Shown: one piece after another, positions 3,401 through 45,260 of the stretch
How positions within the stretch are numbered: position 1 is the stretch's first letter
Layout: every line of letters starts with the position of its first letter
DNA from: an uncultured Fibrobacter sp.
Lineage (GTDB): Bacteria; Fibrobacterota; Fibrobacteria; Fibrobacterales; Fibrobacteraceae
Assembly (NCBI GenBank): GCA_947165045.1
Contig: CAMUYW010000001.1
Location: 62,001-126,000, forward strand
DNA: 64,000 nucleotides
Direction: 5' to 3'
Position numbers and translations under genes: made by a program
Notes under the pieces: model-generated
Told to the model about the DNA's origin: nothing
Seen by the model: only the letters and a program-made list of their open reading frames with translations
Databases searched by the model: none

Positions 3401-3430
3401 TTTGTCATTCCCGCGCAGGCGGGAATCTCC
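3401..3430. repeat. Short palindromic intergenic repeat (GTCATTCCCGCGCAGGCGGGAATC)
   Basis: 'gtcattcccgcgcaggcgggaatctcc' contains inverted arms ATTCCCGC/GCGGGAAT between two CDSs. Confidence 0.6.
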
Positions 3431-4692: not shown

Positions 4693-4719
4693 GATCCTTC
4701 GACTTCGCTCAGGATGACA
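4693..4719. repeat. GATCCTTCGACTTCGCTCAGGATGACA dispersed repeat
   Basis: Same sequence, inverted, at 44528-44555; variant at 38261-38287. Confidence 0.8.
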
Positions 4720-37416: not shown

Positions 37417-38745
37417 ATGGATTTTTTTGAATTTTTGAATACTGCAGTGACTCCGTACCATACTGTGGATGCTTTAAAGGCATTTTTTAGGGCAAATTCT
37501 TTTGCGAATTTTGATGATGTCCTTGAACCAGAAAAATCGTATTTCGTGAGCCGCGGGGCTTCGATTATTGCGTTCCGTACGCCAAAGCAGTGGAATGAAT
37601 CGTCGAAGTTCAGGATTGCGATGGCGCATACGGATTTTCCGTCGTTAAAGATTTCCCCGAATCCAGATTGTTTCTCGGCGGGTGTGTGTACGCTCCATAC
37701 GGAGGTTTACGGTTCTCCACTCTATACGAGCTGGCTCGATCGCGATTTGGGCTATGCGGGCATGCTTGCGTATGTGGATGCTGCTGACGGGAAAACTCTT
37801 AAGACGAAGTTGTTCCGTGGCGAAAAGCTTTTCAGGATTCCGCAATTGGCAGTTCACTTGAATCGTGGCGTGAATCAGGATGGCCTCAAGGTGAATCCGC
37901 AAATAGACTTTAACGCGTTGTGGAGCGGGGCTTCGGGTCGCGCTTCCGAAGGCGAAAAAAACTTGTTTGTGAAAGCGCTTGAAAAGGAACTCCCGGCAGG
38001 TGCAAGGTTGATTGATTTTGATGTGCAATTATTCGATGCGCAGCCTGCAAATCAAGGTGGTTTCAATGATGAGTGGATTTATTCGGGAAGGCTTGATAAC
38101 TTGAGCAGTTGCCATGCCATTGCCGAGGCTATTGTTGGCGCCGAGTCTAACGAGAACGATTGCCTTGTGGCGTGTTTCTTCAACAATGAAGAAGTCGGTT
38201 CTACCACTCGCGAAGGCGCTGTCGGGAACTTCTTGCAAAGCGTTTTGGATTCTATCTTTGGATCCTTCGACCTCGCTCAGGATGACAATTCTAGGAGTGT
38301 CATCCTGGAGGGGCAAAGCCCCAATAGGATCCATACATCTCTTTCCTCTCGTCTTTCGTCTAGTATCGCGCTTTCCATTGACATGGCGCATGCGGAACAT
38401 CCGAACCACACGGAAAAGCATGAGCCGAATCACGCACCGCTATTGGGCAAGGGCATTGTGCTCAAGACGAATTCTCAAAAGCGTTACGCGAGCGATTTGA
38501 TGAGTTCTGCGAAACTCCGTTTGCTCTGCGAACAGGCTAGCATCCCGCTCCAGGTTTTCATTACGCGAAACGACATGCCATGCGGCAGTACGGTTGGCCC
38601 GACTGTTTCTGCAAATCTCGGAATCCCGACGGTCGATATCGGCGAGCCCATGCTCAGCATGCACAGCATCCGCGAGATGATGGCCGCAAGCGACCATGCA
38701 GACATGATTAAGCTTGTTCGCGTTTTTTTCTGTGATAAAAACTAG
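37417..38745 (+). CDS. apeB: M18-family aminopeptidase containing an in-frame repeat insertion
   Basis: 'FRIAMAHTDFPSLKISPNP', 'QLAVHLNRGVN', 'GRLDNLSSCHA', 'CFFNNEEVGS', 'SIDMAHAEHPNHTEKHEPNHAPLLGKG', 'DMPCGSTVGP'. ATG 37417 preferred. Confidence 0.93.
   Translation: MDFFEFLNTAVTPYHTVDALKAFFRANSFANFDDVLEPEKSYFVSRGASIIAFRTPKQWNESSKFRIAMAHTDFPSLKISPNPDCFSAGVCTLHTEVYGSPLYTSWLDRDLGYAGMLAYVDAADGKTLKTKLFRGEKLFRIPQLAVHLNRGVNQDGLKVNPQIDFNALWSGASGRASEGEKNLFVKALEKELPAGARLIDFDVQLFDAQPANQGGFNDEWIYSGRLDNLSSCHAIAEAIVGAESNENDCLVACFFNNEEVGSTTREGAVGNFLQSVLDSIFGSFDLAQDDNSRSVILEGQSPNRIHTSLSSRLSSSIALSIDMAHAEHPNHTEKHEPNHAPLLGKGIVLKTNSQKRYASDLMSSAKLRLLCEQASIPLQVFITRNDMPCGSTVGPTVSANLGIPTVDIGEPMLSMHSIREMMAASDHADMIKLVRVFFCDKN
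38261..38332. repeat. Back-to-back GATCCTTCG...ATGACA / TGTCATCC...GGATCC repeat pair inside the M18 CDS
   Basis: Read directly; encodes 'GSFDLAQDDNSRSVILEGQSPNRIH' in-frame. Confidence 0.85.
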
Positions 38746-44508: not shown

Positions 44509-45260
44509 TGGTTAGACGAGAGAATGTTGTCATCCTGAGCGAAGTCGAAGGATCCAGGACATTTACAACAGCATTAATAGCAATCTTTTTTCTTGCTGTA
44601 GCAGCATTTGCAGCTCCGAAGTCGGCTTCCGCGTACTACGGTGATGCGGCATTCCAGTACATCGAAAATCGTTTGCCTTCTGCCGAAATTACATGCAACG
44701 AAGGTTTGCAATATTATCCGAACGATCAAAAATTGCAGATGCTCCTTGACCGCATTCACGAAGCGAAGAACGAACAGAAAAACGAAAATAAGAAGAACGA
44801 CAAGAATCAGGATAATAACCAAGATCAAAACCAAAACGATCAAAATCAGAATCAAGACAAGAATAATCAGGATCAAAATAAAGATCAGCAGAACCAGGAT
44901 AAGCAAAATCAGGACCAGAACCAGAATCAAAATGGCGACCAGAGTTCCAGTTCTCAGAATGACCAGAATCAGGATAAGCAAGATCAAGGACAAAACGGTG
45001 GCCAGTCCAGCAGCAGTCAGGGCGGGCAAAGCTCCGACAGCAATGGCGGTGCTGGCGAACAGCCGCAACAACCGGAACAGTCCGAAGGCAATTCTAGCGA
45101 TAGTAACGGCTCCGATCAAGAACAACCTCAGCCGCTTGCTCCTGGCGAGTTGAGTCCTGAAGAAGCCGCTCAACTGCTCAAAGATTTTGACGAACAAAAC
45201 GGCGAACGAAAACCGTGGAAACCTGTCCGCGGCCAGGTCCGCCCTGCTAAAGACTGGTAA
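44508..45260 (+). CDS. BatC/TPR-like secreted protein with long Q/N/D/K low-complexity tract
   Basis: Start overlaps the previous stop (TAATG) behind a strong SD (GGAGGTGAT). 'NQDNNQDQNQNDQNQNQDKNNQDQNKDQQNQDKQ...' tract. Confidence 0.8.
   Translation: MVRRENVVILSEVEGSRTFTTALIAIFFLAVAAFAAPKSASAYYGDAAFQYIENRLPSAEITCNEGLQYYPNDQKLQMLLDRIHEAKNEQKNENKKNDKNQDNNQDQNQNDQNQNQDKNNQDQNKDQQNQDKQNQDQNQNQNGDQSSSSQNDQNQDKQDQGQNGGQSSSSQGGQSSDSNGGAGEQPQQPEQSEGNSSDSNGSDQEQPQPLAPGELSPEEAAQLLKDFDEQNGERKPWKPVRGQVRPAKDW
44528..44555. repeat. TGTCATCCTGAGCGAAGTCGAAGGATCC repeat inside the 5' end of the 44508 CDS
   Basis: Exact inverted copy of the intergenic repeat at 4693-4719; encodes VILSEVEGS. Confidence 0.9.
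44800..44945 (+). repeat. Low-complexity CAR/AAY/GAY codon tract in coding sequence
   Basis: Imperfect tandem 'aaccaagatcaaaaccaaaacgatcaaaatcagaatcaagac...'. Confidence 0.9.

Follow-up and report, generated by a model that had tools for sequence, protein, structure and literature searches.

Palindromic repeats that lie in frame within genes have been described chiefly from Rickettsia and a handful of other genomes. The window analyzed here, a 64,000-nucleotide stretch from a Fibrobacter genome (3.3 Mb in 146 contigs, 87% complete), contains an M18 aminopeptidase gene with two such repeats in its coding region, and it raises the question of what these repeats are, how they came to lie in this gene and whether the encoded peptide matters to the enzyme.

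Two head-to-head palindromic elements lie in frame in an M18 aminopeptidase gene

The locus comprises the following features.

37417 to 38745, plus strand: M18 aspartyl-type aminopeptidase gene, 442 amino acids (Pfam PF02127, metal-site residues, AlphaFold model)
38248 to 38367, plus strand: hypervariable loop, residues 278 to 317 (length variation, low pLDDT)
38260 to 38287, minus strand: palindromic element A in inverted orientation; the minus strand reads TGTCATCCTGAGCGAGGTCGAAGGATCC
38288 to 38297, no strand: 10-nt spacer ATTCTAGGAG between the two heads; L002, L004, and L005 have a similar spacer
38298 to 38334, plus strand: palindromic element B, TGTC-ATCCT-GGA-GGGGC-AAA-GCCCC-AAT-AGGAT-CCAT

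The frame from 37417 to 38742 runs through 442 codons without interruption. The Pfam Peptidase_M18 profile was matched over its full length (protein residues 6 to 438 to profile positions 1 to 432 of 432; E = 3e-108), and the residues H71, D227, E258/E259, D322, and H416 were invariant in 27 homologues. In addition, the AlphaFold model of the protein resembles solved M18 structures, for example 4dyo and 4njr. The sequence-only reading had proposed that both the reading frame and the catalytic motifs survive the insertion, and these results bear it out.

The insert at 38261 to 38332 consists, in order, of GATCCTTCGACCTCGCTCAGGATGACA, the 10-nt spacer and TGTCATCCTGGAGGGGCAAAGCCCCAATAGGATCC, all in frame and exactly as that reading had described its two back-to-back repeats. 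When read from the TGTC end, A and B are one kind of element in opposite orientation, placed head to head. Folded as RNA, the pair reaches −36.1 kcal/mol (z = −4.7). An Rfam search at the locus gave no match, which speaks against a known structured RNA as the identity of the insert. The open frame suggests that the insert is translated. The loop that contains it sits between a helix (residues 272 to 290) and a strand running to SIDMAHAEHPN, and in the AlphaFold model pLDDT falls below 50 at residues 293 to 305, a low confidence of the kind expected for disorder. Comparison with an M18 homologue lacking the insert, as had been suggested, confirmed the extra length, in that the Pseudomonas aeruginosa enzyme (3wt4) has 6 residues where the Fibrobacter protein has 28.

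The elements belong to dispersed CGTC-REP-like families

A search of the source genome with a 73-nt insert query returned 48 places at E ≤ 10, with the strongest matches lying far under this threshold, and both halves of the insert proved to be dispersed repeats. The motif TGTCATCCTG occurred 72 times in the genome and 0 times in the reversed control; reversed controls were near zero throughout the repeat searches. The copies have fixed ends and a variable interior (99 of 111 interiors were distinct), and the arms within one copy pair better than arms swapped among copies (mean run, 3.59 versus 2.77; standard deviation, 0.07). The general layout is a TGTC tag, a stem beginning with AT, a variable self-complementary interior and a CCA tail, and both insert elements read ATCCT...AGGAT-CCA. 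In 776 kb of the source genome, made up of stretches picked around repeat copies and not a random sample, the pattern GTCAT-xyz..x'y'z'-AT was matched 185 times, compared with 44 to 108 times for control tags, and C or T precedes GTCAT in most of the elements listed. Three further elements lie in the window itself.

3403 to 3426, plus strand: sister element of the TGTC-ATTCCCGCG..CGGGAAT type
4693 to 4719, minus strand: further copy of element A, intergenic
44528 to 44553, plus strand: further copy of element A, lying at the 5' end of an open reading frame or before it

The CGTC-REP superfamily, with RPE-4 and RPE-6 among its members, comprises high-copy repeats that lie mostly between genes, with some in-frame units inside genes, and that lack a dedicated transposase; they have a stem of 8 to 9 bp and a loop of 4 to 5 nt, and head-to-head dimers predominate while head-to-tail dimers are negligible (Di Nocera et al. 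2013, PMC3733652). Fibrobacter is absent from the main text of that study. The Fibrobacter elements share with this superfamily the unpaired CGTC or TGTC tag (family variants, TGTC and CCTC), the complementary AT at the start of the stem and the CCA tail in both insert elements, and a high copy number with mostly intergenic and some in-frame copies, the Y1-type transposase (PF01797) having no link to them. However, the outer stem of A and B is short, a mismatch occurs internally and the inner part varies, and neighboring copies within 60 bp were mostly arranged head to tail (9 of 12) rather than head to head; 2 were tail to tail and the only head-to-head pair was the insert in the window. Because stem and loop size and the prevalence of head-to-head pairs differ from the published description, we call the elements CGTC-REP-like. 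Other elements of the source genome, such as the sister element at window position 3403, TGTCATTCCCGCGCAGGCGGGAATC, do fit a stem of 8 to 9 bp and a loop of 4 to 5 nt, and this sister element is nearer the published CGTC-1 family (8-bp stem, 4-nt loop) than the insert is. Literature searches returned unrelated matches only, among the matches listed, for the repeat sequence itself, and a general review only for palindromic or repetitive sequences of Fibrobacter succinogenes.

The M18 loop is a recurrent hotspot for repeats across Fibrobacter

Our comparison covered 74 distinct M18 sequences, taken from Fibrobacter and its relatives and mostly from metagenome assemblies. Within the protein, length varies most in the stretch after residue 280, which has 23 distinct lengths between 1 and 42 residues, the shortest value coming from L062, which is truncated at a contig end. 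The loop contains A and B, B alone, A alone, C, C with D, D, E, F, or no recognized repeat, where C is GTCATTGCGAG..CGAAGCAATC, D is GGTTGGTGAGCCTGTCGAACCA, E is CAAAGCGAGCTTGCGAGCG and F is of the AATTCCGAACTCCGAA type. At least five repeat families thus occur in this loop, all in frame. Repeat-motif matches numbered 61 in the 5.3 kb of loop sequence versus 14 in the remaining 85.9 kb, and most of these 14 were matches to one 10-nt motif with one mismatch. The same loop picture was obtained from near-complete assemblies of 9 to 10 contigs (G061, G064, and G065).

On a gene tree built without the loop, the repeat-type label changed at least 21 times among 73 sequences. Between the close sisters L015 and L035, element D is present in only one, with the frame kept, and one element type occurs at the same loop site in different reading frames (VILEGQSPDRIH and CHPGVREHDRAQ); this speaks against selection for the peptide. 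The M18 loop is a recurrent hotspot and not the site of one event. Since it keeps gaining different repeats, and near-identical loops occur in species that are not close, it seems to serve repetitive DNA as an exchangeable landing site.

These comparisons revise the sequence-only reading. The case is not one of a single insertion into an otherwise constant protein, for the loop varies strongly throughout the genus and other repeats often occupy it. Repeat-free orthologues, too, have loops of widely differing length, which goes part of the way toward the equally long unrelated loop that it had named as evidence against itself. The parallel it drew with Rickettsia palindromic elements suits the kind of event: the repeat is kept as coding sequence, in other genes as well, but at a recurrent hotspot rather than through a single event.

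Elements B, C, and D are multicopy in the genomes whose loops contain them, and a few copies of E were found; beyond the pair in the window, these genome-wide counts cover loop families C, D, and E. For family C, an exact pattern found few copies, and leaving the interior free recovered more. The family C consensus also has matches on plasmids from Methylosinus, Methylocystis, Novosphingobium, Legionella, cyanobacteria, and Halomonas, and this type of repeat therefore occurs in more than one phylum.

Other conserved genes carry in-frame elements

Within the 776 kb, 118 strict elements were found, comprising 92 intergenic copies, 14 inside reading frames and 12 uncertain ones, the last being matches near 5' ends that were so classed because the simple open reading frame caller extends some genes upstream. 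With approximately 102 expected in genes by chance and only 14 found there, 4 to 5 of which look like chance matches in ordinary coding sequence, insertions in genes seem to be mostly purged while some copies persist. In the source genome, the HrpA helicase gene carries two separate REP-like elements in frame (L084:7765-7799 and L084:10017-10041), and Escherichia coli HrpA lacks the inserted stretch. Further in-frame copies were seen in MnmE (L089:10139-10164), a UvrA-like protein (L088:15022-15033), a glycosyltransferase (L076:1404-1415), and a TonB-type receptor (L090:2814-2825).

A second variable loop was found in an EF-G paralogue, in which the stretch after residue 370 has 18 distinct lengths among 30 Fibrobacter sequences (L146 to L175; the copy of the source genome is at L098:10150-12174, minus strand). 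The repeats in this loop are A, B-like, C, or of the GAGAGACGA type, and they are read in several frames; the loop of L166 contains three elements and that of L169 a long GAGAGACGA-type array. Judging from their intact domains, the M18, HrpA, MnmE, and EF-G paralogue proteins are probably functional.

Repeat-bearing loops can be nearly identical between species

In several pairs of species with the same repeat-bearing loop, the loop DNA was far closer than the adjoining codons, being nearly identical where the flanking codons differed by 10 to 20%. Thus, L002 and L005 differed at 0 of 135 loop positions versus 39 of 360 flanking positions (p = 3e-6), and L017 and L026 at 3 of 120 versus 71 of 360 (p = 7e-7). 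Overall, synonymous divergence was 0.085 in shared loops and 0.397 in the rest of the gene, about a fifth. No such low divergence was seen in repeat-free loops (for example, L019 and L020 differed at 20 of 78 loop positions versus 36 of 360 in the flanks), nor in L049, L109, L110, and L124, whose short loops contain a diverged E-type motif. Four pairs of EF-G paralogues likewise had a loop closer than its flanks.

Approximately unbiased (AU) tests on the loop-free gene tree rejected a single clade for L006/L007/L013 (p = 6e-5), L032/L059 (p = 0.0014), and L003/L008/L011 (p = 0.0014); these p-values are optimistic because the loop types were grouped after the data had been seen. The pairs are not independent, and several branches among close species in the gene tree are weak. 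In the five genomes searched, the complete 135-nt loop of L005 was not found outside the M18 gene, which speaks against a multicopy loop cassette. From these comparisons, the loop appears to have been exchanged between the M18 genes of different species by recombination.

The Y1 search links no transposase to the elements

A search for the Y1 transposase (PF01797) found a match in 28 of 80 genomes of the genus and none in the source genome (87% complete) or in the near-complete, element-bearing genomes G026, G061, and G065. Three Y1 loci examined elsewhere in the genus had no elements flanking them. By this search, no transposase is linked to the elements, and the absence of Y1 from these element-bearing genomes, together with the three element-free Y1 loci, speaks against a RAYT as the mobilizer. 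The elements resemble the RAYT-mobilized GTAG-REPs in being short palindromes with many copies; they differ in that the GTAG tag was not seen and the Y1 transposase is missing from the source genome. A RAYT in the genome or flanked by repeats, as is expected of RAYT-mobilized REPs and REPINs, was thus not found in this 87% complete assembly.

A probable tolerated passenger and its alternatives

Taken together, we consider it probable that a REP-like pair is tolerated as a passenger in a flexible loop of the M18 enzyme and that whole loops were then exchanged between species. An element would land in the M18 gene, by some route, within a flexible surface loop, and only in-frame insertions that the loop tolerates would survive; the insert would persist because it leaves the frame open and the loop can vary in length. 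The resulting loop would then spread among species by recombination at the M18 gene, presumably homologous. Across Fibrobacter, this loop has repeatedly gained, lost or exchanged unrelated repeat families. The encoded 24 to 25 residues are most likely a passenger without a function of their own, given that one element type appears at a single site in more than one frame and that the model confidence is low. A more tentative idea is that the palindromic repeats turn the loop into a recombination hotspot, with hairpins causing breaks there and imported M18 copies serving for their repair, and that repeat-bearing loops thereby spread between Fibrobacter species as short cassettes, also in the EF-G paralogue; we think this possible but doubtful.

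The low divergence of shared loops could instead reflect constraint on DNA or RNA rather than recent exchange. Loop DNA held under nucleotide-level constraint, as an RNA hairpin or a protein-binding DNA site, would stay similar without exchange, and the reduced synonymous divergence and the stable hairpin of the A and B pair agree with this. Yet in close relatives this loop holds entirely different elements, or none at all, a pattern that does not fit a required site, and the shared loops conflict with the gene tree. Exchange accounts for the low divergence, the tree conflict and the restriction of the complete loop to M18, whereas constraint accounts for the first alone, and we regard it as unlikely. 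Adaptive inserts, with repeat-derived loops altering assembly, specificity or recognition of the aminopeptidase and their diversity being selected, would explain the high turnover at one loop and the loops common to several species. The occurrence of one element type in different frames at one site speaks against this, as do similar inserts in unrelated proteins including HrpA, MnmE, and the EF-G paralogue and a loop whose low-confidence prediction fits disorder, and we judge selection for the insert to be quite improbable.

Removal of the segment at the RNA or protein level, in the manner of an intron or intein, is highly improbable: low DNA divergence would be its sole fit, the insert is shorter than known self-splicing introns or inteins, the Rfam search gave no match, and related loops keep an open frame that removal would not need. 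Finally, the source genome is fragmented and incomplete, which could produce an assembly artifact, but related inserts occur at the same site in the independent near-complete assemblies G026, G061, G064, and G065, and part of the loop in the window is 90% like the loop of L002, L004, and L005, leaving this explanation with scarcely any credibility.

Relation to known systems and meaning for Fibrobacter

The Fibrobacter insert resembles Rickettsia palindromic elements (RPEs) in that palindromic repeats lie in frame within functional protein genes (M18, HrpA, MnmE, the EF-G paralogue, and others). A kinship with RPE-4 and RPE-6 would follow from the superfamily layout as described in PMC3733652. 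The Fibrobacter case differs in belonging to another phylum and in combining several families at one loop with whole-loop sharing among non-sister species, for which we found no description among RPEs. In two Xanthomonas species, different REPs occur at about one site in recB (PMC3733652). This resembles the M18 loop in placing different repeats at roughly one gene site, but involves two species, compared with at least 21 label changes among 73 sequences and a second gene in Fibrobacter.

In-frame insertion of REP-like elements is thus of a known kind, and what is added here is the use of one loop by several families and the sharing of loops across species. In Fibrobacter, which are gut bacteria, in-frame repeat insertion has occurred many times at one mapped loop, including a sister pair that differs by an insert. 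This provides a natural series for testing whether such repeats are neutral passengers, how they are mobilized in the absence of a RAYT, and whether palindromes favor the exchange of short gene segments between species.
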